Origin: Desulfofundulus kuznetsovii DSM 6115
GTDB lineage: Bacteria; Bacillota; Desulfotomaculia; Desulfotomaculales; Desulfovirgulaceae
Reading direction: 5' to 3'
DNA: 64,000 nt
Assembly (NCBI RefSeq): GCF_000214705.1
Contig: NC_015573.1
Span: 1,449,001 to 1,513,000, forward strand
A program made the position numbers and the translations under genes. Every line of letters begins with the position of its first letter. Within the stretch, counting starts at the first letter, position 1. Of the stretch, positions 28,669 through 45,343 are shown in pieces. The notes beneath the pieces are model-generated. The model saw only the letters and a program-made list of their open reading frames with translations, was not told the DNA's origin and did no database searches.

Positions 28669-28760
28669 GGAGAGTCTTTACGCCTGCTATCTTTCGCGCG
28701 AAGATAGAAAGGCCTGTCACTGGCTTTTTGCCCTTTGGTAAAGGACATGTTCCAGTGAAA

Positions 28761-29013
28761 GGGGCAGGCAGGTCTCCTGGCTCCCGGATCTTTGGATGCC
28801 CGCGCCTTCCCGGTCCAGCACTCACCAGTGACATCGTTAAACCGTGTCGTTATGAACAAGCGTCCCATTGGATGTAGCAGCTCATCAGTGAGTGCAGGGC
28901 CAGTGGCACCTTGCGGGTTCCTCCCCGGTTACAGTGGCGGGACCGCGCCGGCTTAAGCAGGGTCCACCTGCTCCCCGGTCTTCCCTATTATCCCCCGTTG
29001 GGGACCTGCCCCG
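28761..29013 (-). promoter_or_regulatory. cobalamin riboswitch upstream of cbiD
   Basis: On the minus strand the segment carries the features of the B12-box family: GATAATAGGGAA near the 5' end, GCCACTG followed by GTAACCGGGGAGGAA, a second GCCACTGG, and the 3' B12 box AGCCAGGAGACCTGCC. The 5' segment GGGGCAGGT pairs with ACCTGCC of the B12 box to close the aptamer. It starts only 15 nt after the dnaI stop, so the promoter is inside dnaI or transcription reads through from it. Expected to shut off the cbi operon when adenosylcobalamin is abundant. Confidence 0.93.
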
Positions 29014-29027
29014 CACATATTTAGTTT

Positions 29028-33786: not shown

Positions 33787-33820
33787 AAAAACCCCCGCTC
33801 ATTACGCGGGGGTTTAGTTT
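33787..33820. terminator. bidirectional terminator between gap and metF
   Basis: AAACCCCCGC/GCGGGGGTTT stem with a 7-nt loop; T-runs flank it on both strands (TTTAGTTTT on plus, TTTTTATTG on minus). It closes both convergent units. Confidence 0.9.
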
Positions 33821-33824
33821 TCTC

Positions 33825-34748
33825 TTATTCCACTTTGGGCCGCGGGAAAAGACCGGACCGTTCCACGATTTCCGGCACCACTTCTTCCCAGGCAATGGCC
33901 ATGATGTGTACGCCGTGTACGCCGGGAATGTTGCGAATGTGCTTGATTTGCTCGATGCAGATCTCAATTCCTTCTCGCTTGGGATCCTCCGCTTTTTTCA
34001 GCCTTTCCACGATATCATCGGGTACAATCATACCCGAGACGCTGGTTTGCAGGTATTTTGCCGCCCGCCAGCTTTTCAGTGGGGTGACCCCGGCCAGGAT
34101 GTGTACCCGTTCGTGAATGCCCCTCTCCCGGACCATTTCCATGAAGCGCTCAAAACGCTCCATATCAAAAATACATTGGGTCTGGATAAACTCCGCCCCG
34201 GCCTCCACTTTTTTCTCCAACCGGGCCACCCGGAACTCAAAGGGATCCGCAAAGGGGTTGGCCACCGCTCCAATGAAGAAGCGGGGTTCATGCTCTTTAA
34301 TGGGTTCGCCGGAGAAGAACAGCTTTTCCTCCCGCATACGGCGCATCAAATAGATTAGTTGTATGGAGTCAATATCGTAAACGTTTTTAGCCGAGGGCTC
34401 GTTGCCAAACTTCTGATGGTCGCCCGACAGGCAGAGCAGGTTCCGGACCCCCAGGCTGTAGGCACCCAGCAGATCGCTTTGGATGGCAATGCGGTTTCTG
34501 TCCCGGCAGGTCATCTGCACAATTGGCTCCAGGCCGCAATCAAGGATATGCACGGCAGAAGCAATGCTGGAGAGCCGTACTATGGCCGTCTGGCAGTCGG
34601 TAATATTGGTTGCATCCACGTAGTCCTTCAACATGTGGGCATGGTGGCGGATACCATGGGCGGATGCATGCTTGGGCGGCCCGATTTCTGCAGTCACCGC
34701 AAAGTGGCCGCTGTCAAGGAGCTTTTGCAGTTTGCTTTCTGTTTTCAC
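33825..34748 (-). CDS. metF: 5,10-methylenetetrahydrofolate reductase MetF
   Basis: 307 aa TIM-barrel flavoprotein: AVTAEIGPPKHAS, DATNITDCQTAIVRLSS, LCLSGDHQKFGN, GAEFIQTQCIFDMERF and HILAGVTPLKSWRAAKYL. It reduces methylene- to methyl-tetrahydrofolate, the last step of the methyl branch. GTG 34748 overlaps the metV TGA. Last gene of the hdr-flx-met cluster; like Moorella MetF it lacks an obvious NAD(P)H domain of its own, so electrons must come through MetV and Hdr partners (inference). Confidence 0.94.
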   Translation of the reverse strand: MKTESKLQKLLDSGHFAVTAEIGPPKHASAHGIRHHAHMLKDYVDATNITDCQTAIVRLSSIASAVHILDCGLEPIVQMTCRDRNRIAIQSDLLGAYSLGVRNLLCLSGDHQKFGNEPSAKNVYDIDSIQLIYLMRRMREEKLFFSGEPIKEHEPRFFIGAVANPFADPFEFRVARLEKKVEAGAEFIQTQCIFDMERFERFMEMVRERGIHERVHILAGVTPLKSWRAAKYLQTSVSGMIVPDDIVERLKKAEDPKREGIEICIEQIKHIRNIPGVHGVHIMAIAWEEVVPEIVERSGLFPRPKVE

Positions 34749-35416
34749 CCGATCATCACATCCTCCCTGATGGCTTTGCGCGGCCCTCCGTCACGGGACT
34801 TGGACCAATCCTTGGGCGGCTGAATTTCAAGCAATTTGTCCAGCTTGCCCAGAGCTTTCATGCGGTCGTAGATCAGTTGCCAGGCACAGTCCACATCCTT
34901 GCTGATCTCACACTTGCCGTACTGGGAACCGCCACAGGGACCGTTTAAGATGCTCTTGGAGCAGCGGATAATGGGGCAGATACCGCCGGTGCGGTGGAGG
35001 ATGCAGTCGCCGCAAAGACCGCACCTCTCTTCCCACACGCCGTGGGCCGTGGAACCACCCACAAACATGGTGTTCTGGGCAGGTACCACCCACTTGTCAT
35101 GAAACCGCTCGGCGATGTACTGTACGCCCACTCCACAGGCAAGGGAAACTACGGCATCGACGTCTTTAACCAGATTTTCCAGGGCCTCAATGTATTCCGG
35201 GTCGCACTGCCTGGTGGCGGTATAGGTAACTGTTTCCAGGTGGTTGCCCTGTAACCGGCGCATGATGCGCAGGGATGAAGCTAAAACTTCGGTTTCTTTC
35301 TCGCCCCCCGACAGGCAGACGGTAACACAACCGGCACAGCCAACCAGGAGGACCTTTTTGCAGTCAGCAATCATTGCGGCAATATCTTTAATTGGCTTTT
35401 GTTGTGCTATGATCAT
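34745..35416 (-). CDS. metV: MetV, zinc/iron-sulfur partner subunit of MetF
   Basis: 223 aa. Matches the methylene-tetrahydrofolate reductase C-terminal/MetV family: VLLVGCAGCVTVCLSGGEKE, SLACGVGVQYIAERF, ERCGLCGDCILHRTGGICPI, CSKSILNGPCGGSQYGKCEI. The many cysteines should bind 4Fe-4S clusters (two in Moorella MetV, from memory). In Moorella it forms a tight complex with MetF. ATGA overlap with the mvhD stop upstream indicates coupling. Confidence 0.93.
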   Translation of the reverse strand: MIIAQQKPIKDIAAMIADCKKVLLVGCAGCVTVCLSGGEKETEVLASSLRIMRRLQGNHLETVTYTATRQCDPEYIEALENLVKDVDAVVSLACGVGVQYIAERFHDKWVVPAQNTMFVGGSTAHGVWEERCGLCGDCILHRTGGICPIIRCSKSILNGPCGGSQYGKCEISKDVDCAWQLIYDRMKALGKLDKLLEIQPPKDWSKSRDGGPRKAIREDVMIG

Positions 35417-35862
35417 GCCACGTCACCTTCTTTCTCCGTGGTCCCCGCATTTTGTTTTTTAAGGGGATTGGGGCCCAGGCGGCGGATACGTTCGGTCATC
35501 TCGTTGGCTATTTCCGCAAAACGGGGTCCCATGGCCGCCGAAAGGTTGTACATTTCCAGGCGTTCGCCGCCCACTCCAATTTCATCGAGCAGTTTTTTAA
35601 CCGCATTTACCCGCTTCTTGGCGCGATAGTTTCCTTTTTGGAAGTGACAGTCGCCTTCCATGCAGCCGGCAACGAACACGCCGTCGGCGCCATCTTCAAA
35701 GGCCTGCAGGAGCACCCGGTGATCGATAGTGCCCGAGCAGGGCATTTCGACAATGCGAATGTTTGGAGAATATTGCAGTCGCATCGAACCTGCCAGGTCC
35801 GCTGCGGAGTAGGCTCAGTAGTGGCAGCAAAATGCTACGATTTTAGGCTCAAATTCCCCCAC
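35413..35862 (-). CDS. mvhD: MvhD-type delta subunit, selenoprotein (Sec16 from in-frame TGA)
   Basis: 149 codons from GTG 35862 (GGGAGG 6-7 nt upstream, 3 nt after the hdrA stop) to TGA 35413. An in-frame TGA at 35815-35817 lies in AFCCHY-U-AYSAADLAG. The paralog at 43.6 kb has [16 protein letters not shown], so the TGA stands at a conserved cysteine. The rest is a complete MvhD: VEMPCSGTIDHRVLLQAF, GVFVAGCMEGDCHFQKGNY, RRLGPNPL. MvhD carries a 2Fe-2S cluster and passes electrons to HdrA. A hairpin follows the TGA (separate entry). A plain gene caller would start this protein at Met27 (35784) and lose the first Cys/Sec motif. Confidence 0.88.
35775..35817 (-). promoter_or_regulatory. candidate SECIS hairpin of mvhD (metV-linked)
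   Basis: Starting right after the UGA (35815-35817), 20 nt lead to a GGC apical loop (35792-35794) closed by the 7-bp stem CGGACCU/AGGUUCG. GCAG/CUGC can extend it below. Bacterial SECIS hairpins sit inside the coding region at about this distance from the UGA and bind SelB. Confidence 0.65.
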
Positions 35863-35865
35863 TGG

Positions 35866-38800
35866 TTACACCTCCCTGAATAAAGCTTTGCTCATGGACA
35901 TTTGCATATGGTCTTTATAACCCTGGAGGGTGATGGCCTTGTTGGGACATTCTCCGGCGCAGGTACCACAGCCCTGGCAGAGCAATGGTTCAATCTCGGC
36001 GGCGTAATTTCTAATTTTAGGCGCATTGTAGGGGCAGAGCCTGACACATGTGAGGCAGGCGGCACATTTATCCTGCTGCACCACTGCTACCACACCGTGG
36101 GATTCCAGATGATCCTTGCTGAGAATGGTAGATGCCCTGCCCGCTGCCGCTTTGGCCTGGGCAATATTTTCCTCCAGATTTTTCGGTCCATGGGCCAAAC
36201 CGGCCATGAAAATACCCTCAGAAGTGAAGTCCACCGGGCGTAACTTCATGTGGGCCTCCAGGAAGAAGCCGTCTTCATTCAAAGGCACCTTAAAGAGCTG
36301 GCTCAGCTGGCGGTTGCTTTCAGGAGCCACGATAGCCGCCGCCAGTCCGATTACATCGGCCTCAATGACTACCGGTACACTCAGGACGTGGTCGGTTACG
36401 GAAACCTTTAGCAAGCCGTTTTTCTTTTCAACCAGCGGCTTGTTTTCAGGGTTATAACGGATGAATAACACGCCCTTGCGGCGGGCTTCCTGGTAATAGT
36501 CCTCCAGGAAACCATAGGTACGAATGTCCCGGTAGAGCACGAATACGTTGGCTGAGGGATTTTTTTCTTTGAGCTTTAAGGCCAGCTTGACGGACTTGCC
36601 GCAGCATACCCGGCTGCAGTAAGGGCGCTCGGGTTCCCGGGAACCGACGCACTGGATGAGCACAAATGTCTTGGCGTTCTCAATGCGCGGGTCTCCCGCT
36701 GCGAGGGCTTCTTCCAGCTCCAGCTGGGTAAATACCCGGTCACTTTCGCCATAAAGATATTCCGTGGGTTTGTATTCCTCACCGCCTGTGGCAATAACAG
36801 CCACGCCATGCTGCAGTTCCTTGCCGTCTGTCAAAGTGGTGACAAAATTACCCACATAACCGGCCACGGCTTGAACTTCTGTGCCTGTGTAAACCTCAAT
36901 ATTGGGGTGGGACATTACTTTGGCCACAAGATCATTTAGGAAGGGCTGTACTTCCTCACCCTTTAAACCGTGCCTGATGCGCCGGGCCATTCCGCCCAGT
37001 TGCTGCTCCTTTTCCACCAGGTGTACCCGGTAACCCAAGTCAGCCAGTGAAAGGGCACTGGTCATGCCCGATACGCCGCCGCCGATGACCAGGGCAGCTT
37101 TGGTTACACCGGCTGCGATTTGGGGAATCGGTTCCAGCAGGGCAGCTTTAGCCACCACCATTTTTACCAGATCCTTGGCTTTTTCCGTGGCCTTTACCGG
37201 TTCATGCATGTGTACCCAGGAGCACTGGTCGCGGATGTTGGCCATTTCAAACAGGGCCCGGTTTAATCCGGCTTCCCGGACGGTTTCCTGGAAGAGGGGT
37301 TTGTGGGTCCGCGGACTGCACGAGGCAACCACCACCCTGTTCAGGCCGTATTCTTCAATGATTTGTTTCATGGCCGCCTGGCTGTCCTGGGAGCACGCGT
37401 AGAGGTATTCGCCGGCATAAACCACGTTGGGCAGATTCCTGGCCATTTCCACCACTTCGGGCACATTGACCACACTGCCAATGTTCACACCACAGTGACA
37501 GACAAACACGCCAATACGCGGTGGCTGGCCACTGACGTCTTTCTCCGGCGGGAATTCCTTTTCCTTCACCAGGGTACCCCGGGCTTCCGCCAGGAGGCTG
37601 GCCGAGGCGCCGGCGGCAGCACTGGCCTGCATGACCGTTTCCGGGATGTCTTTGGGTGCGCTGAAAGCGCCGGCTACGAAAATGCCCGGTTTATTTGTCC
37701 CTACACCGGTAAGGGGGGCGGGTTCCGCAAATCCGTACTTGTTCAGTGTAAGTTCCAGCTTCCGGCACAATTCCATTACGCCCGGGGAGGGTTCAAGGCC
37801 AACGGACAGAACGACTAGATCAAATTCCTCTTCACAGATGGTACCGTCTTCCTCGGCATAGCGAATGCGCAAATTTTTGCTTTCATCTTCCACTTCCGTA
37901 ATTTCATAAACCCGTGAACGGATAAACCTGACCCCTTGTTCGTCCTTGGCCCGGTTGTAGTACTTCTCAAAACCCTTGCCGTAGGTGCGCATATCCATGT
38001 AAAAGATGGTGGTCTCCAGGGGCTCTTTGCTATGTTCCTTAGCAATAACCGCTTCCTTGATGGCATACATGCAGCACACCGAGGAGCAATAACCGTGGTC
38101 TATCCGGCAGTTACGGGACCCCACGCACTGAATCCAGGCAATGCGCCGGGGTTCTTTTTTATCGTAGGGTCTGACCAGGTGTCCCTGGAAGGGACCGGAA
38201 GCGCTTAGAATGCGTTCAAATTCCAAGCTGGTCAAAACATTGGGATATTTACCGTAACCATAATAGGTTAGCTGGGAGGGGTCAAACTTCTGAAATCCCG
38301 GGCAGAGAACCACGGCCCCCACATTCAGCTCAATGGTTTCCTCTTCCATGGAATGGTCGATGGCGCCGGCCTGGCAGGCTTCCTCGCAGGCACCGCACTC
38401 GATGCAGTTTTCCTTATCAATGACATATGCATTGGGAAAGGCCTGGGCGTAAGGTTTATAAATGGCCTTGCGCTCCCCGATTCCCTGGTCGAACTCCGAA
38501 GGGACATCAATGGGGCAGGCTTCGGCGCATTCGCCACATCCCTTACATTTATCCACATCGACGTAGCGGGGGCGTTGACGGATGGTTACGGTAAAATTCC
38601 CCGGCTCGCCCTGCACGTCCACCACATCGGCGCAGGTGTAGGTTTTGATATTCAGGTGACGGCCGCATTCCACCAGCTTGGGGGAAAGGATGCACATGGA
38701 ACAGTCATTGGTGGGAAAGGTCTTATCCAGCATGGGCATGGTGCCGCCAATGGCCGGAGAACTTTCCACCAGGTAGACCAAGTAGCCCGATTCGGCAAGA

Positions 38801-38871
38801 TCCAGGGAGGCCTGGATGCCGGCGATACCCGCTCCCACCACCAGTACCGACCCTGCTTTCTTAGCGCTCAT
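35866..38871 (-). CDS. hdrA: double-length HdrA (two HdrA-like FAD modules)
   Basis: 1001 aa. First module: FAD motif VLVVGAGIAGIQASLDLAES, FPTNDCSMCILSPKL, ferredoxin-like CKGCGECAEACP and CIECGACEEACQ, CVGSR. Then a linker GVFVCHCGVNIGSVVNV with CSPRTHKPLFQETV. Second module: VIGGGVSGMTSALSLAD, then CVGSREPERPYCSRVCC. C-terminus: CAACLTCVRLCP and CQGCGTCAGECP clusters. HdrA holds the FAD that splits electrons in bifurcating complexes. Two FAD modules in one chain match the long HdrA of MetFV-linked gene sets rather than the 669-aa HdrA at 45.3 kb. mvhD follows 3 nt after the stop. Confidence 0.93.
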   Translation of the reverse strand: MSAKKAGSVLVVGAGIAGIQASLDLAESGYLVYLVESSPAIGGTMPMLDKTFPTNDCSMCILSPKLVECGRHLNIKTYTCADVVDVQGEPGNFTVTIRQRPRYVDVDKCKGCGECAEACPIDVPSEFDQGIGERKAIYKPYAQAFPNAYVIDKENCIECGACEEACQAGAIDHSMEEETIELNVGAVVLCPGFQKFDPSQLTYYGYGKYPNVLTSLEFERILSASGPFQGHLVRPYDKKEPRRIAWIQCVGSRNCRIDHGYCSSVCCMYAIKEAVIAKEHSKEPLETTIFYMDMRTYGKGFEKYYNRAKDEQGVRFIRSRVYEITEVEDESKNLRIRYAEEDGTICEEEFDLVVLSVGLEPSPGVMELCRKLELTLNKYGFAEPAPLTGVGTNKPGIFVAGAFSAPKDIPETVMQASAAAGASASLLAEARGTLVKEKEFPPEKDVSGQPPRIGVFVCHCGVNIGSVVNVPEVVEMARNLPNVVYAGEYLYACSQDSQAAMKQIIEEYGLNRVVVASCSPRTHKPLFQETVREAGLNRALFEMANIRDQCSWVHMHEPVKATEKAKDLVKMVVAKAALLEPIPQIAAGVTKAALVIGGGVSGMTSALSLADLGYRVHLVEKEQQLGGMARRIRHGLKGEEVQPFLNDLVAKVMSHPNIEVYTGTEVQAVAGYVGNFVTTLTDGKELQHGVAVIATGGEEYKPTEYLYGESDRVFTQLELEEALAAGDPRIENAKTFVLIQCVGSREPERPYCSRVCCGKSVKLALKLKEKNPSANVFVLYRDIRTYGFLEDYYQEARRKGVLFIRYNPENKPLVEKKNGLLKVSVTDHVLSVPVVIEADVIGLAAAIVAPESNRQLSQLFKVPLNEDGFFLEAHMKLRPVDFTSEGIFMAGLAHGPKNLEENIAQAKAAAGRASTILSKDHLESHGVVAVVQQDKCAACLTCVRLCPYNAPKIRNYAAEIEPLLCQGCGTCAGECPNKAITLQGYKDHMQMSMSKALFREV

Positions 38872-38978
38872 CAAACATCACATCCGTCCTTTCGAAAATA
38901 AAGGTGGCAATACCCACCCCTGCAGGCCGTCCCAGGGGTTAACTTTGCTGGGAGCAGAAGTGGGTGTATTCGGCTGGC

Positions 38979-40202
38979 CTAAGCTTTGGGTTCTTTTTCG
39001 GGTATAATCAGGGCTCTTTCAACAATGCTGCAGATATGTTCCATCTTCATGCCCAGCTTGTAATGTTTGTTGAGGTCATTGAACTGGTCCATGCAGTTGT
39101 GGCAGGGAATAGCCACAATTTTAGCTCCTGTGGCCAGAAGCTGGTCCACTTTGCGCTTGCCCTTGATTAAACGCTGTTCCGTATATTCAGGCATGGCCAG
39201 AGCACCGCCTCCGGCACCGCAGCAATAATTCCACCGCCCGTTGGGAAACATTTCCCGGAAGTCCATTACTGCAGCCTTTAATACCCGGCGCTGCGGTTCT
39301 ACTACCCCTTCTTTGCGCACCAGGTTGCAGGGATCATGGAGAGTGACCGGTTCGGGGTTCTTGGTGGGGTCCAGCTTAATCCGCCCTTGCTGGATCCACT
39401 CGTCCAGGACCTCCAGAATGCTGCGGATGGGGAACTGCGGTCCCTTCCAGAAGGTGCGGTAACCCCAGCGTACGGAACGGAAGGCGTGGCCGCATTCGGT
39501 AACAACCAATTCCTTGGCCTTTAGCCGTACCACTTCCTGAAGCATTGGTTCAGTGATTTTCCAGAAATCTTCGTCCTTACCACTGAAAAGGGCCAGGTTA
39601 GTGGCATCCCACTTTTGGGAGCTCAGGGTATAATTGGCCCCGGCGGCATAGAAAATCTTCAGGATGTTCTGCAACTCGTTGGGGTAATACTTTACCTCCC
39701 GGGCGTTGAAGCCAAAGAGGAAGTCGGCTCCCTCCACATCAACAGGAATGCGATAATCAGGATCACCCAGTTCAGCCTGCAGTTCTTCCTGGAGCCACTC
39801 CAGTGTTTCCATGTATTCATCGGGCTGTACATCCATCTGGTTGCCGGACCTGATGGTGTCGTCAACCACCTTTTGGAGGAAACCGGGTGAATCGGTGCGG
39901 AAATTGCCGCGAATAGCCCTGGTAACGGCAGCAATGTTCACGCACATGGGACACTCCACCGTACACCGTTCACACATGGTGCAGTACCAGATGAAGGGAT
40001 CACTTAAAATTTCTTCCCGCATCCCCAGGATTACCTTGCGCAGCATTTTGCGGGGATCATTATCGGGGTGCAGGTCGGAGAAAGCGCACCCGGCCGTACA
40101 CGCACCGCAGGCTAAACAGTTGGCAAAGTCCAAACTTTTCATCTTTTCCGCTAACTCATCCCGGAAAGTGGGGTCCAGTTCTGCGGCCACGATGGCTTTC
40201 AT
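38979..40202 (-). CDS. HdrC-HdrB fusion (HdrD-like Fe-S protein)
   Basis: 407 aa from ATG 40202 (GGGGAGG upstream). Residues about 25-110 hold two 4Fe-4S motifs (CLACGACTAGCAF and CTMCERCTVECPMCV), as in HdrC. The C-terminal half is HdrB-like: the second CCG domain is complete (LHDPCNLVRK ... YCCGAGGGAL ... IPCHNC), the first is reduced to VVTECGH without its CC pair. So at most one of the two noncubane-type sites of HdrB is present. Lies between the Flx-type subunit and the long hdrA, so it probably feeds that HdrA/MvhD/MetVF module. Confidence 0.86.
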   Translation of the reverse strand: MKAIVAAELDPTFRDELAEKMKSLDFANCLACGACTAGCAFSDLHPDNDPRKMLRKVILGMREEILSDPFIWYCTMCERCTVECPMCVNIAAVTRAIRGNFRTDSPGFLQKVVDDTIRSGNQMDVQPDEYMETLEWLQEELQAELGDPDYRIPVDVEGADFLFGFNAREVKYYPNELQNILKIFYAAGANYTLSSQKWDATNLALFSGKDEDFWKITEPMLQEVVRLKAKELVVTECGHAFRSVRWGYRTFWKGPQFPIRSILEVLDEWIQQGRIKLDPTKNPEPVTLHDPCNLVRKEGVVEPQRRVLKAAVMDFREMFPNGRWNYCCGAGGGALAMPEYTEQRLIKGKRKVDQLLATGAKIVAIPCHNCMDQFNDLNKHYKLGMKMEHICSIVERALIIPEKEPKA

Positions 40203-40250
40203 ATTAGAAACCTCCCCTCTGGGGCTTTTTGATTGACCATCCCACACACA

Positions 40251-40305
40251 CAACCCTGCGGCCTTGCGCCGGTCTTACCTTTAAGCCGGCGCAAGCCGGG
40301 GGTTG
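40251..40305 (-). other. long intercistronic hairpin in the flx-hdr cluster
   Basis: CTTGCGCCGG/CCGGCGCAAG 10-bp stem with a 13-nt loop, extended by CCGG/GCCG and CAACCC/GGGTTG. It follows the Flx FAD subunit stop and precedes the HdrCB fusion by about 50 nt. No U-tract on the minus strand follows it. It may be an mRNA processing or stability boundary. Confidence 0.6.
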
Positions 40306-40316
40306 TTTTTATCTTT

Positions 40317-41156
40317 CTAGTATTCGTTAGGTAACTGGTTAAGTTGGGCCCGGGTAAAGACCGGACCATCTTTACAGACGTATTTATTGCCCACGTTACA
40401 CCGGCCGCACATGCCGATGCCGCATTTCATCCGGTTTTCCAGGGACATGATGATCCGCTCGGGGGAAAAGCCCAGTTCCTCGAGCACCGGCATGGTGAAC
40501 TTAATCATCACCGGTGGGCCGCAAATTACCGCGTACGCATTTTCCGCGCTGGGAGCTACTTCCTTGGTTACTGCCGGTACAAAACCCACCCGGCCGTTCC
40601 ATCCCTCTACCGGGCGGTCAATGGTGCAGATCAGATTGATGTCCGAACGCTTTTCCCATTCGGCCAGCTCGTCCTTGTAGAGCAAGAGGCCTGGATTGCG
40701 GGCGCCATAAATTACCGTCAGTTCTCCGTAGTCTCCCCTGTGGTCGGGATGGAGAATGTAGGTAATTAGCGATCTTAATGTGGTGAAGGCAAAGCCACCG
40801 CCAATTACTACCAGGTTCTTGCCCTTGAACTCCTCTATGGGATAGTTGTTGCCCAGTGGTCCCCGCACACCCAGGATGGTGCCTTCAGGGAGCTGGTGCA
40901 GGGTTGTGGTCACCACACCTACTTTGGCCACCGAAAACTTCAGGTGCCCGGGTTCTGTGGGTGAAGAGGCAATGCCGAAGGGAGCTTCACCTACACCAAA
41001 TACGGATACCTCGGCAAATTGGCCGGGTAAATATTGGAATGACTTCTCGTCTTCTTCATTTAGGAACTCCAGGGTAAAGGTATGAATAAGCTTATCCTCG
41101 GTTTCCACAAAGTTTTTAACCAGCCGCATGGGAAGTGGAAGATAGGGGTTTTTCAT
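40317..41156 (-). CDS. Flx/Asr-type FAD-NAD(P)H oxidoreductase subunit
   Basis: 279 aa, ferredoxin-NADP-reductase fold. FAD part: YLPGQFAEVSVFGVGEAPFGIASSPT and VRGPLGNNYPI. NAD(P) part: NLVVIGGGFAFTTLRSLITYIL and VICGPPVMIKFTMPVLEELGF. C-terminal cysteine cluster CGIGMCGRCNVGNKYVC for a 2Fe-2S centre. Similar to sulfhydrogenase gamma, AsrB and the flavin subunit of Flx complexes. It should take electrons from NAD(P)H. ATGA overlap with the preceding iron-sulfur gene. Confidence 0.88.
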   Translation of the reverse strand: MKNPYLPLPMRLVKNFVETEDKLIHTFTLEFLNEEDEKSFQYLPGQFAEVSVFGVGEAPFGIASSPTEPGHLKFSVAKVGVVTTTLHQLPEGTILGVRGPLGNNYPIEEFKGKNLVVIGGGFAFTTLRSLITYILHPDHRGDYGELTVIYGARNPGLLLYKDELAEWEKRSDINLICTIDRPVEGWNGRVGFVPAVTKEVAPSAENAYAVICGPPVMIKFTMPVLEELGFSPERIIMSLENRMKCGIGMCGRCNVGNKYVCKDGPVFTRAQLNQLPNEY

Positions 41157-42178
41157 TGCTTATCAGACCTCACTTCCGAACCCTGGATCTCCGCTAACAC
41201 TTCCCGGATGTCCAGATTAACAGGGCAGTTTATAATACACCTGCCGCAGCCTACACAGGCTATGGCGTTGAAATTGTCCACGAAGTACTTGAATTTATGC
41301 ATGACCCGTTGCCGGAACCGTTCCTTACCCGTCGGGCGGGGGTTGTGGCCGGAACCGTGGAGGGTAAAGAGCGGGAACATGCAGGCATCCCAATTGCGTA
41401 TCCGGCAGCCTTCGTTTCCCTCAGCTTCGTCTACAATGTCAAAGCAGTGGCACGTGGGACAGGTGTAAGTGCAGGCGGCACACCCCAGGCACTTCTCATG
41501 GATCAGGTCCCAGATGGGGTCATAGAAAATAACATCCAGCTTGGACTTTAACCCTTCCAGATTTACTTGGGTAGAGAGCGCCGCACCTTCTTTCACTCTT
41601 CGGGCAGTTTCCTTCGCCTCCTGGTCGGCGGCGGGCAGCTCCATTCCGGCGAGCAATTCTCGACCTCTGTCCGTCAGCACCTCCACCACGTATCGGTCAC
41701 CGATGTCCACCAGCAAGAGGTCCAGGCCTTCGGTGGCAAAAGGACCCCCGCCCAGCGAAGTGCAGAAGCAGGTGGATGCCGGTTGATTACACCCCAAGCC
41801 CACCAGTACGGTGTTGTTCCTTCTGGTCAGGTAGTAAGGATCATGATATTTATCACTCTTAAAGACGCCGTCCAGAAGGAGAAAGCTTTTGGCGTCGCAG
41901 GGCCTTAAGCCGACGATAATTTTTTTGCTTTCATCAATTTGCTCTGTTAATTGCACGCCATCGTTTTCACAGCGATAGCAGAAGAGTTTTTCCGAACGTG
42001 GAAAGAGAACCTCTTTGGGTGGGACCTTGGAGTTGGTATAATTCAAGGTTGCCTGGTCGCCGGAGTTAATTTGCTTGAAGCAGAAATAGTCACCCTCTTT
42101 TATCGGGGCAAATACCTGATAAGCCTGCATCAACTGATTGAGCCAATCGGTAAGCTGGCCTTTATTTAAAAGCAACAC
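41153..42178 (-). CDS. Flx/Asr-type 4Fe-4S dicluster subunit
   Basis: 341 aa, GTG 42178 with GGGAGGTG upstream. N-terminal half: IIVGLRPCDAKSFLLLDGVF, TVLVGLGCNQPASTCFCTSLGG. C-terminal half: two ferredoxin-like clusters CLGCAACTYTCPTCHCFDI and CVGCGRCIINCPVNLD. This is the AsrA/sulfhydrogenase-beta type and resembles one of the iron-sulfur subunits of Flx complexes. It should carry electrons between the FAD subunit and Hdr proteins. Confidence 0.86.
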   Translation of the reverse strand: MLLLNKGQLTDWLNQLMQAYQVFAPIKEGDYFCFKQINSGDQATLNYTNSKVPPKEVLFPRSEKLFCYRCENDGVQLTEQIDESKKIIVGLRPCDAKSFLLLDGVFKSDKYHDPYYLTRRNNTVLVGLGCNQPASTCFCTSLGGGPFATEGLDLLLVDIGDRYVVEVLTDRGRELLAGMELPAADQEAKETARRVKEGAALSTQVNLEGLKSKLDVIFYDPIWDLIHEKCLGCAACTYTCPTCHCFDIVDEAEGNEGCRIRNWDACMFPLFTLHGSGHNPRPTGKERFRQRVMHKFKYFVDNFNAIACVGCGRCIINCPVNLDIREVLAEIQGSEVRSDKQ

Positions 42179-42182
42179 TCTC

Positions 42183-43145
42183 TCACCTCCCGTCTTGATT
42201 AAAAGTGGCCGGGCTTGTTGTATTAATTGGTGCAGCTAACGGAGGTTTTTGATCCAAGCTGACCCCGGCGGTATAACCAAACAGCTCCTGAACATCCTTC
42301 ACCATTTTGCGGGTTAAGGTACGCAAATCAATGCCCATGGGGCAGGCACGGTCGCATGCTCCACAGTCCACGCAGCGCCCGGCCAGGTGAAGTGCCCTTA
42401 CGGCCTGGAAAAAGACGTTATCCTGAACATTCAGGGATGACTTGCTAAGCCACTGGGGCATGGAGCAATCGACAAAGCATTCTTCACAGAAGCACATGGG
42501 GCAGGCCTGCCGGCAGGCATAACAGCGAATACAACGGGACAGTTCCTGGATAAGATAGGCCCGTTTTTCCGCCGGTGCCTTGACTTCAAAATTAGCCACG
42601 TCGACAAAACTGTCGGCTTCCTTCACCGGAACCGGCTCGCCCATCATGATGTCGAACAATACCGGGTTTGGGTGCTGGCAGGTTAAACAGGTATCGTGAA
42701 GCAGTTGTTCAAGGGGAACAGATTCGCTAAATTCTTTTCCTTTTAATACAACCTGGCCGTCCCTTATTTCTGCTTCCAGCAACTCCTTTCCTGCCAGCAG
42801 ACGGGTTACTTTCTTGCGGTCAATCATCCCCCGGCAAGGTACACCAATAACCACCAGTTTGTTGCGGTCGATCTGGTTTTCTTTTATAAGCTCTACTATG
42901 GAGCGGCTGTCGCAACCCTTGGCCACCACGGCCACTTTTTCCGGCCTCTGGCGCAGGTAGTTAGCCAGGTTGTTTTCGCAGCCATAGCCCCAGACCAGCC
43001 TTTGTGCCTCCTCTGGTTGGCGAACAAAACAGGGGGTATTGCGCAAAGGGAGACTCCCCTCTGCAAAACCCACCACTAGCTCAACTTCCTTGTTTTGCAG
43101 GAGTTTTTGTGCCGTTTCTTGAATCGCCCTGGTTAATTCGCTCAT
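42183..43145 (-). CDS. Flx-type 4Fe-4S subunit with FrhB-like N-terminal domain
   Basis: 320 aa from ATG 43145. N-terminal half resembles the beta subunits of F420 hydrogenase-like proteins (VVAKGCDSRSIVELIKENQI, VVIGVPCRGMID). C-terminal half has CIRCYACRQACPMCFCEECF and CVDCGACDRACPMGID. It sits between mvhD and the dicluster subunit, completing a three-gene Flx-like set with mvhD as the fourth member. Which Flx letter applies is uncertain. Confidence 0.8.
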   Translation of the reverse strand: MSELTRAIQETAQKLLQNKEVELVVGFAEGSLPLRNTPCFVRQPEEAQRLVWGYGCENNLANYLRQRPEKVAVVAKGCDSRSIVELIKENQIDRNKLVVIGVPCRGMIDRKKVTRLLAGKELLEAEIRDGQVVLKGKEFSESVPLEQLLHDTCLTCQHPNPVLFDIMMGEPVPVKEADSFVDVANFEVKAPAEKRAYLIQELSRCIRCYACRQACPMCFCEECFVDCSMPQWLSKSSLNVQDNVFFQAVRALHLAGRCVDCGACDRACPMGIDLRTLTRKMVKDVQELFGYTAGVSLDQKPPLAAPINTTSPATFNQDGR

Positions 43146-43320
43146 TATTATAAACACCCCGCCTTCTTGACCCGACCTTTATTGGGACTCGGTTCCTTCA
43201 CCGAGGTAAGTACTCCGTTTACCTCTAGATTTTTAACCTTCCCTCCTGCATTAAGGAGCTTTGGGCAAGACCGACAACTCGTTTGTAGGTGCCTTTCCTT
43301 AACCCTTACAAGGGGTCCCG

Positions 43321-43773
43321 TTAAACCGCGGTTCCCTCAATTCCTTTCTCCTGGCCATTCGTGATACGCAACGGGTTGGGACCCAGTTCCTGCAGCTGAG
43401 TAGTGAAATCTCTTACCGTCTCGGCAAACTTGGCCCCTTCCGAAGCGGAAATCCAGGCCAACCGGAGCCGCTCCCGCTCAATTCCCAGTGTATCTAAAAG
43501 CCGCTGGGTAATCTTGGTGCGCCGTTCAGCATTATAATTGCCACTACCATAGTGGCAGTCTCCGGGGTGTCACCCGCCTACCAGCACACCGTCAGCGCCG
43601 GCAAAAAGGGCTTTCAGTATAAATAACGGGGAAACCCTTCCAGAGCAGGGCACCCTGATAATCGTCACATTCGGGGGGTACTGGAACCTGAGAGACCCGG
43701 CCAGGTCTGCACCTGCGTAACTGCACCAGTTACATAAAAAGGCAATAATTTTTGGTTCAAACTCTGTCCGCAT
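43321..43773 (-). CDS. mvhD: MvhD-type delta subunit, selenoprotein (Sec68 from in-frame TGA)
   Basis: 150 codons from ATG 43773 to TAA 43321. The TGA at 43570-43572 follows GVLVGG and precedes [12 protein letters not shown]; the paralog at 35.4 kb has GVFVAGC-MEGDCHF there, so TGA again stands at a conserved cysteine. The frame continues 82 codons to a full MvhD end (ELGPNPLR). The first motif here is intact Cys ([14 protein letters not shown]). A strong hairpin follows the TGA. The protein should accept electrons from the Flx-type subunits and hand them to HdrABC. A plain gene caller would report a 67-aa fragment. Confidence 0.9.
43539..43572 (-). promoter_or_regulatory. candidate SECIS hairpin of mvhD (flx-linked)
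   Basis: After the UGA (43570-43572) 12 nt precede a perfect 8-bp stem UGCCACUA/UAGUGGCA with loop UGG (43547-43549). The loop starts 20 nt after the UGA, the same distance as in the other mvhD gene. Confidence 0.72.
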
Positions 43774-43859: not shown

Positions 43860-44750
43860 TCATCCTTCCAAAATCCTGTTTACAACGCGACTTACATCCG
43901 TTTTCGCCAGACCGGTAACCTTCTCCGGATCGGCTCCCAGGCATAACGCCAGGACCTGCATGATGTGGAGGACGGGAATCTCGAAATTAATCTTCTTGCC
44001 GCTACGCAGGAGTTCCTGGGCTGTGTCGAACTGGATTAAGCAGGAACTGCAACCGGTCACAATCAGGTCGGGATTAACCTCGTTTTTCATGGAGATAAGC
44101 TTTTTCTCCACAAGCTTTAAGGATTTTTCCATGTCGGTGCTCCGCATAGCACCCATACCGCAACAGTCGATCAAGCGGGTATAATGACCAACTGTAGCGC
44201 CCAAGGCCTCACACATTTCCTTAAGCACCCTGGGGTGGAAGGGATCTTCTTCCTTGTCATAGTAAACTTTGCTTGGCCAGAGGGTGTGACAACCGGGCTG
44301 AAGAGCCACTGTAAGGCCGTCGAGTTTATATTTAACGGCCTCTTTAATCCTGTCAGGTCCAAGCTCATGGTATAGATAATAGAAAGCGAGCCTGACATTG
44401 CTGGTTCCCTTATATTCCCTGCCAATATCCTTAAGAATCTCGTTGACCTGGGCCTTTATCTCCGGGTGGGTATCCATCTTGTACTTTGATTCAGCCAGGC
44501 TGCCGTAACAGCTGCCGCACACGGTGACTATGTCCAGGCCCTTTTCCTCAGCTATGGTATGGTTTCTAGCTCCAACGGCGCACCAGCCCACCACGTCTAC
44601 GGAGGGCATCGTCCCCCAACTGGGACAGCACGACTGTCCTTCAAGGTCGTCCAGTTCAATCCCCAGTGCCGGGAACGCATACCGTACCGCCTGCTCTAAA
44701 TCCGGTCTATTAAACGCCGTGTTGCAGCCGACAAAAAAACCTACCTTCAT
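43860..44750 (-). CDS. hdrB: heterodisulfide reductase subunit B
   Basis: 296 aa with two complete CCG domains: SCCPSWGTMPS ... VTVCGSCYGSL, then LQPGCHTLWPS ... IDCCGMGAMRS ... VTGCSSCLIQF. These bind the noncubane 4Fe-4S clusters that reduce disulfides in methanogen HdrB. The natural electron acceptor in this organism is not known; in Flx-Hdr of Desulfovibrio it is thought to be DsrC or a related protein, inferred only. Preceded by hdrC with a 3-nt gap. Confidence 0.93.
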   Translation of the reverse strand: MKVGFFVGCNTAFNRPDLEQAVRYAFPALGIELDDLEGQSCCPSWGTMPSVDVVGWCAVGARNHTIAEEKGLDIVTVCGSCYGSLAESKYKMDTHPEIKAQVNEILKDIGREYKGTSNVRLAFYYLYHELGPDRIKEAVKYKLDGLTVALQPGCHTLWPSKVYYDKEEDPFHPRVLKEMCEALGATVGHYTRLIDCCGMGAMRSTDMEKSLKLVEKKLISMKNEVNPDLIVTGCSSCLIQFDTAQELLRSGKKINFEIPVLHIMQVLALCLGADPEKVTGLAKTDVSRVVNRILEG

Positions 44751-44753
44751 TGG

Positions 44754-45326
44754 CTACACCTCACAAGTTTCCTTTACGCCGGACTCGTCCATGGGGATAA
44801 TCCCCAGGTCGGCCAGGGCTGTTTTTCGTATGACCGCCTGCAGTTCTTTCAAAGCTTCCGGGTTCGCGACCGTGGAAGGCGGCTTTTCCGGCAGACCAAC
44901 TTTTGCCCGCGTGTTTCCAGCTCCCGCCAGGTAAACGGCATGGCCGGTATCGTAAAGGGACTTAAGACCTTCAATGGAAAGGGTAGGCAGGGCAAACTCC
45001 CTTATCGCCACTCGCCGCATGGCTTGAATGATTTCAAAGGGGTTAACCTCCCGTGGACATACTTCGGTGCAGCGATTGCAGGACTGACAGGCCCAAATGG
45101 ATGAATCGTCCAGCAATGCGTCGCGCAACCCCAGGAAGATCGCTTGAATAATCCGCTTGTTGAAAAAGGGAAAGCCAGCCAGCACCATTGGGCAGGCGGC
45201 GGCGCATTTGGCGCACTGGATGCATTCCATCAATTCCTCGCCGCCTAACTCTTTTATCTCATTAACTAGACTGGAATCGCCTTCCGAGAGGTTGATTACC
45301 CCCGTTGCTACTTGATCGCTAGACAC
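44754..45326 (-). CDS. hdrC: heterodisulfide reductase subunit C
   Basis: 190 aa, with two 4Fe-4S motifs: CIQCAKCAAACPMVLAG and CQSCNRCTEVCPREVNPFE. Links HdrA to HdrB. GTG 45326 has GGGGG about 8 nt upstream and is preferred over GTG 45335. Lies 17 nt after hdrA and 3 nt before hdrB. Confidence 0.93.
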   Translation of the reverse strand: MSSDQVATGVINLSEGDSSLVNEIKELGGEELMECIQCAKCAAACPMVLAGFPFFNKRIIQAIFLGLRDALLDDSSIWACQSCNRCTEVCPREVNPFEIIQAMRRVAIREFALPTLSIEGLKSLYDTGHAVYLAGAGNTRAKVGLPEKPPSTVANPEALKELQAVIRKTALADLGIIPMDESGVKETCEV

Positions 45327-45343
45327 TCGTACCACCCCCGAAC

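Follow-up and report, generated by a model that had tools for sequence, protein, structure and literature searches.

Two predicted MvhD selenoproteins with selenocysteine at different cysteine sites in one hdr-flx-metVF gene run of Desulfofundulus kuznetsovii

A 64,000-base stretch of the Desulfofundulus kuznetsovii DSM 6115 genome (positions 1449001–1513000 of a single contig of 3,601,386 bases; hereafter the window) carries a minus-strand run of hdr, mvhD, flx-like, and metVF genes with two paralogs of MvhD, one beside FlxC-, FlxB-, and FlxA-like genes (Flx-linked) and the other followed by metV and metF (MetV-linked). Each contains one in-frame UGA of the selenocysteine (Sec) type and has a cysteine where its partner has Sec, i.e. 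the alternation at complementary positions that a first-pass annotation of this DNA had proposed and that the genes and their UGA codons confirm. Judged from sequence evidence, both MvhD proteins are selenoproteins. We consider it probable that both act as electron connectors in which selenium has two jobs, with Sec at site 68 of the Flx-linked protein replacing a ligand of the iron-sulfur cluster and Sec at site 17 of the MetV-linked protein sitting beside it; for this proposal we infer the ligand set, the jobs of selenium, and the electron routes.

In-frame UGA codons and the hairpins that follow them

Sites are numbered on the Flx-linked protein (43321–43773), whose five cysteine sites are 14, 17, 43, 68, and 73; codon 16 of the MetV-linked protein aligns with its position 17. 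Both proteins match PF02662, the family of the known MvhD, VhuD, and FrhD selenoproteins, over its full length (1–123 of 123), with 185.9 bits for the Flx-linked and 176.9 bits for the MetV-linked copy (cut-off 22.3). All five candidate cluster residues are Cys or Sec in both, and both UGAs fall at positions occupied by Cys in homologs; in the MetV-linked protein, Sec takes the second cysteine position of a CxxC motif (CxxU). The MetV-linked gene (35413–35862) also ends in UGA (35413–35415, overlapping the metV start codon as ATGA), and because this UGA terminates a gene that holds an internal one, the codon appears to serve as both Sec and stop within the same mvhD.

The genome has seven PF02662 domains, four in short frames with one in-frame TGA each and three in long frames with none. 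Among the four short-frame proteins, the MetV-linked copy has Sec17 and the other three have Sec68. Two of these Sec68 copies lie outside the window (1444806–1445174 and 202228–202596), and one of the two, about 3.8 kb past its left end, has HdrA-, FlxC-, and FlxB-like neighbors.

Read in the standard code, both open reading frames (ORFs) are cut, with the Sec17 gene leaving only a piece of 123 amino acids (aa) and the Sec68 gene no listed piece of 80 aa or more, which would suit genes broken by stops or sequencing errors at one or both UGAs. We nevertheless reject this explanation and give it practically no weight, given the recurrence of the UGAs, the hairpins of Sec forms, the third-position bias downstream, and the Sec machinery of the genome. 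Specifically, the same pair of UGAs is present in 16 of 22 genomes (see below), and differences between the window copy and seven orthologs past the UGA fall mostly on third codon positions (third/first/second: 91/37/22 for the Sec68 gene and 100/15/2 for the Sec17 gene). Together with the Sec-only hairpin excess, these observations argue against chance or sequencing error.

Both UGAs are followed by a hairpin that begins at the identical distance, 14 nucleotides (nt) on, and has 7 pairs and a 3-nt loop containing G, so the equal spacing of presumed Sec insertion sequence (SECIS) loops claimed in the first pass holds. Contiguous stems of at least 6 pairs with a loop start 17–26 nt past the codon were counted in the fetched sequences, with 40 rounds of synonymous recoding as the control. 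Such stems occur in 95 of 96 Sec68 forms (14.2 expected) and 88 of 133 Sec17 forms (17.5 expected), compared with 14 of 199 Cys68 forms (16.6 expected) and 25 of 130 Cys17 forms (20.3 expected). The hairpin excess is confined to Sec forms. In a set chosen around the MetV-linked copies, 6–7 pairs are present in 14 of 15 Sec rows; five of seven Cys rows, and the single Ser row, have no pairs from the loop outward. Across 44 aligned Sec68 hairpins, 89.0% of cells are paired (19.5–61.7% when slid), one pair shows 12 compensatory changes, and three of five covariation measures lie above all 500 shuffles.

The genome encodes the Sec machinery, with matches to selB (377.3, cut-off 242.25), selA (631.5, cut-off 267.9), and selD (399.2, cut-off 125). 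The best match to the tRNA-Sec model scores 74.8 bits (cut-off 47) and the next 52.6; four more tRNA-like matches at 47–53 mark the model as unspecific, and the best stands 22 bits clear. The selD gene (2621043–2621966) itself carries one in-frame TGA, and its product is probably a selenoprotein as well.

Site conservation and the probable cluster ligands

Conservation was counted in 311 distinct stretches, which contain 303 full domains. Cys14 and Cys73 are present in all 303 domains and Cys43 in 302, and site 68 is always Cys (203) or Sec (100). Site 17 is Cys in 132, Sec in 130, Asp in 38, and Ser, His, or Ala in one each, i.e. Cys or Sec in 262 of 303. Sec was found at no column other than 17 and 68 in the matched domains of the 311 stretches.

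The Asp17 domains are informative. All 37 domains with Asp17 in long frames (676–806 aa) keep the other four cysteines, and, once two Asp17 domains from the 60-genome survey described below are added, the window's HdrA is matched ahead of the domain in 32 of 39 cases, with the other seven present only as 900-base stretches. Two Asp17 frames that were tested have HdrA2 as their best match, below its cut-off. An HdrA2-MvhD fusion, comparable to the Asp17 domains by fusion type, was measured to contain iron and sulfide in amounts that fit a single Fe2S2 cluster in its MvhD part (PMC5296606). Since the Asp17 domains keep four cysteines and an HdrA-type fusion holds one Fe2S2, residues 14, 43, 68, and 73 would be the ligands and 17 an extra residue. 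On this reading, site 68 probably binds the [2Fe-2S] cluster, with site 17 as a fifth residue next to it. No explicit statement of the MvhD cluster ligands was found in the parts of the full-text literature searched for one.

Structure models are consistent with these sites lying close together. The AlphaFold2 model of the Sec68 protein has a predicted local distance difference test score (pLDDT) of 91.5 and aligns by Foldseek to 5odh_D and 5odc_D with a root mean square deviation of 0.9 Å (61% identity to the MvhD of 5ODC); that of the Sec17 protein, which includes one extra final residue from the stop UGA, has a pLDDT of 92.1 and matches 5odc_D with Z 22.8 and 44% identity. Both proteins thus match the fold of solved MvhD, as in the Mvh-Hdr complex 5ODC, whose chain D, unlike the window proteins, has Cys at all five sites. 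In the secondary structure of the Sec68 model, residue 14 ends strand 1, 17 immediately precedes helix 1, 43 lies two residues past strand 2, and 68 immediately follows strand 3, and in both models the sites fit one shared location at one sheet edge. An MvhD model (m2ef986810471) also matches the N-terminal domain of HdrA (8rvy chain A, residues 11–142; Z 7.5), which may be a mere common arrangement; an MvhD-like domain within HdrA has been mentioned (PMC9430772).

The first-pass annotation had gone further, with Sec standing in for alternate ligands of what is probably one cluster. That both sites ligate the same [2Fe-2S] and that the Sec swap gives two electron routes differently tuned potentials is consistent with the likely position of both sites at one sheet edge and with the different modules that the two paralogs adjoin. 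Iron ligation by Asp, Ser, or His is possible in principle, which would allow site 17 to be a ligand of variable identity. However, the 37 long HdrA-type frames with Asp17 retain the four other cysteines, and 8 of 129 domains, among the matches listed, from the Sec17-pattern search described below carry both Sec. We regard sites 17 and 68 as alternate ligands as the less likely arrangement, and the reading as a whole as improbable. The homolog survey that the annotation proposed upholds its claim for site 68, which is conserved as Cys or Sec, and goes against it in part for site 17, which is not strictly Cys.

Recurrence and history of the swapped pair

PF02662 was surveyed in 60 genomes (that of the window and 59 relatives), and a selection of the matches listed, with TGA-bearing ones favored, was fetched. 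With patterns written as the residues at sites 14, 17, 43, 68, and 73, the 117 domains among the matches listed comprise CCCUC (81), CCCCC (21), CUCCC (11), CDCCC (2), CSCCC (1), and CATCC (1), the Sec68 share being an overestimate owing to that choice. Species genomes were also searched with a DNA pattern describing the Sec17 motif, which returned at least 117 stretches, a set rich in Sec17 by design, with mostly Deltaproteobacteria-type names among the 80 titles listed. Its 129 domains, among the matches listed, are CUCCC (103), CUCUC (8), CCCUC (6), CCCCC (4), and others (8). Sec17 without Sec68 is common.

The two Sec do not strictly exclude each other, as shown by the eight double-Sec domains and by five matches with two TGA, among the matches listed. 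At least eight proteins have Sec at both sites (L107, L108, L138, L162, L182, L191, L197, and L208), most with a hairpin after each UGA; their Sec68 hairpins are mostly unlike those of the window's relatives in sequence, with a loop 2–3 nt further on. Sec68 and Sec17 paralogs are adjacent in three stretches of the set (L128, L155, and L203), and a Sec68 copy stands beside a double-Sec copy in three more (L108, L138, and L182). In the genome of Desulfotruncus arcticus, reached through L120, one contig carries a Sec17 and a Sec68 copy separated by about 9 kb. The swapped pair is therefore not unique, and the rarity that the first pass had suggested does not hold, given its recurrence in relatives and other lineages and the single proteins with both Sec.

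Flx- and MetV-linked MvhD are readable in one stretch, chosen from the listed matches, in 22 genomes. Sec68 is paired with Sec17 in 16 of them (the window's included), with Cys17 in five, and one genome has Cys68 with Ser17. The order from FlxC to MetF is the same as in the window with some exceptions, i.e. the HdrC-HdrB fusion is unmatched in three stretches (L039, L052, and L056) and the HdrA ahead of the second MvhD in one (L042). In close relatives the first MvhD is preceded by HdrB, in the others by an HdrA, and stretches of five further genomes have two tandem Sec68 copies. In one stretch (L055), a second hdrA-mvhD-metV-metF block adjoins the first, with Sec17 in one copy and Cys17 with a 6-bp stem in the other; the Cys17 copy is perhaps a recent Sec-to-Cys change or a selenium-sparing isoform.

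Columns 17 and 68 were masked for a quick maximum-likelihood tree (137 rows), which recovers the retained MetV-linked copies as one clade (35 rows; Shimodaira–Hasegawa-like approximate likelihood ratio test, SH-aLRT, 99), a few rows of which show no MetV in a short stretch. The window's Flx-linked copy falls outside this clade, among Sec68 forms. A second Sec17 clade is separate (36 rows, SH-aLRT 97), and most order-level Sec68/Cys68 forms group together (33 rows, SH-aLRT 91). The shortness of the protein leaves many forks open (56 of 134). Within the MetV-linked clade, site 17 flips among Sec, Cys, and Ser, and one member (L191) has a second Sec at 68.

Sec and Cys might also be largely interchangeable, with the swapped positions being frozen lineage accidents held by overlapping SECIS constraints in paralogs that differ little in function. 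The fewest state changes on the tree, 15 for site 68 and 8 for site 17, fit this view, as do the five genomes with Cys17 beside Sec68 and the one with Ser17 and Cys68, and three Sec-to-Cys and three Cys-to-Sec changes were counted in FrhD by Zhang et al. 2006 (PMC1794560). However, Sec never occurs at sites 14, 43, or 73 in the 311 stretches, so its position is not free, and Sec68 is found in 81 of the 117 surveyed domains, even if that share is overstated. We hold this explanation to be possible though unlikely. A stronger version of the account we prefer, namely that Sec position is the connector's functional label, with first-shell Sec68 in a NAD(H)/Flx arm and second-shell Sec17 in a MetVF arm setting different gating or potentials in one Hdr-Flx-MetVF supercomplex, is doubtful at present.

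Several observations weigh against a ligand Sec68 and a neighboring Sec17 as features of two distinct selenoprotein types. Among the hairpins, 45 of 133 Sec17 sequences lack a stem of at least 6 pairs under the rule used, and the Sec17 copy of L209, which belongs to the other Sec17 clade, has no stem at the usual place; Cys orthologs in L055 and L255 retain stems of 6 and 5 bp. Two covariation measures of the Sec68 hairpin are readily reached by chance, with two pairs changed on both sides (156 of 500 shuffles) and five further pair types (497 of 500). One more distant domain (L007) has Ala17 together with Thr43, so Cys43 is not absolute. In the masked tree, the window's Sec68 protein sits at an open fork with L058, L059, and L067, beside the second Sec17 and the Sec68/Cys68 groups, and a single clade for all Sec68 forms is not upheld, unlike that of the MetV-linked ones.

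Two electron arms and their relation to known systems

Along the minus strand, the run reads HdrA (720 aa), HdrC, HdrB, the Sec68 MvhD, FlxC-, FlxB-, and FlxA-like proteins, an HdrC-HdrB fusion, an HdrA-type protein (1002 aa), the Sec17 MvhD, MetV, and MetF (Table 1), with acetyl-CoA synthase/CO dehydrogenase genes upstream. The placement of the paralogs beside different redox modules, FlxCBA-like genes and MetVF, bears out the first pass and recurs in operons of relatives, as does the order hdrA-mvhD-metV-metF. A cobalamin riboswitch is also present in the window (28750–29024, minus strand; 114.3 bits).

Table 1. Features of the hdr-mvhD-flx-metVF run (window coordinates)
Feature	Coordinates	Strand	Basis
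Terminator-like hairpin past metF, 10 pairs, T-rich tail	33789..33815	-	Consensus match only; scan 27 found vs 21.1 in shuffles
MetF, methylene-tetrahydrofolate (THF) reductase homolog	33825..34748	-	Top NCBIfam matches methylene-THF reductases, below cut-offs, e.g. TIGR00676 93.7 vs 293.7
MetV, methylene-THF reductase C-terminal domain	34745..35416	-	PF12225 129.9 bits, cut-off 23
MvhD/FlpD, MetV-linked, Sec at codon 16 (CHYU; homologous site 17), Cys at remaining four sites	35413..35862	-	ORF with TGA=U; PF02662
SECIS-like hairpin of MetV-linked MvhD, 7 bp, loop GGC, begins 14 nt past UGA, within ADLAG codons	35785..35801	-	
In-frame UGA, codon 16 of MetV-linked MvhD	35815..35817	-	
HdrA-type flavoprotein, large form, 1002 aa, without internal UGA	35866..38874	-	Named HdrA from domain make-up
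HdrC-HdrB-like fusion	38979..40253	-	Fer4 + CCG
FlxA-like NAD/FAD oxidoreductase	40317..41156	-	PF00175, PF10418; Flx name from domain make-up
FlxB-like 4Fe-4S protein	41153..42178	-	PF17179 113.6 bits; Flx name from domain make-up
FlxC-like FrhB/FdhB + 4Fe-4S protein	42183..43157	-	PF04432, PF13187; Flx name from domain make-up
MvhD/FlpD, Flx-linked, Sec68 (GGU-HPGDC), Cys 14, 17, 43, 73	43321..43773	-	ORF with TGA=U; PF02662
SECIS-like hairpin of Flx-linked MvhD, 7 bp, loop UGG, begins 14 nt past UGA	43540..43556	-	
In-frame UGA, codon 68 of Flx-linked MvhD	43570..43572	-	
HdrB, two CCG stretches	43860..44750	-	Domains
HdrC	44754..45335	-	Domains
HdrA, 720 aa	45344..47506	-	NF040770 813.7 bits, below cut-off 1100

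The [2Fe-2S] cluster of MvhD links an electron donor module to HdrA (PMC12350162, PMC6019823). Because each MvhD of the window adjoins a different module, two electron arms, one per MvhD, are likely, with direction and partners as proposed here. The two connectors would serve HdrA-type bifurcating flavoproteins, one between HdrCB and a NAD(H)-linked Flx-like module and the other between HdrA and the MetVF methylene-THF reductase. In the Flx type, Sec68 most likely substitutes one of the four [2Fe-2S]-binding cysteines; in the MetV type, Sec17 is most likely a fifth selenol beside the cluster at the start of helix 1, non-ligating or transiently ligating. Selenium would then form a first-shell Fe-Se bond in the Flx-type connector and act as a reactive, low-pKa neighbor (in proton transfer, redox chemistry, or cluster protection) in the MetV-type one.

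Sec in the MvhD family is already known, and both Sec positions recur. A 2026 review tabulates the motif as CxxU next to a figure of 2, which we take to mean at most two Sec, and states that some archaeal FrhD/VhuD contain multiple Sec (PMC13188914). Sec FrhD were counted by Zhang et al. 2006 in Desulfotomaculum reducens (2), Moorella thermoacetica (1), and Syntrophobacter fumaroxidans (8) (PMC1794560), and Desulfobacterium autotrophicum has four Sec MvhD (PMC2702500). The window shares the gene order HdrA-MvhD-MetV-MetF with the Hdr-type methylene-THF reductase of Moorella and Sporomusa (hdr-mvhD-metVF), for which pull-down in Sporomusa ovata recovered MvhD together with HdrA, HdrB, and MetF (PMC9430772); it differs in adding a Flx-like module and a second MvhD, with an in-frame UGA in both. 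By domain make-up, its FlxA-, FlxB-, and FlxC-like proteins, MvhD (FlxD), and HdrABC would also fit FlxABCD-HdrABC, loci like which have been discussed for D. reducens (PMC4759654). By contrast with that system, the FlxD homolog has Sec68 and the run continues into HdrBC-HdrA-MvhD-MetVF.

What appears to be new is the association of the Sec site with the paralog and with its neighbor genes, along with the probable difference between ligand and neighbor; in the passages of running literature text searched, neither one-operon paralogs with differing Sec sites nor any linkage of the Sec site to neighbor genes was found.

To our knowledge, the role of Sec as a ligand or close neighbor of an iron-sulfur cluster is poorly understood. 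If Sec position is indeed a functional label, the window would hold a natural experiment within one operon, with selenium as ligand versus neighbor of the same cluster. The paired connectors of this operon, their Sec/Cys/Ser relatives, the double-Sec proteins, and the gain and loss of SECIS elements let this history be read, and allow tests of what makes selenium necessary in an electron-transfer subunit and of how the methyl branch of the Wood-Ljungdahl pathway is wired to NAD(H).

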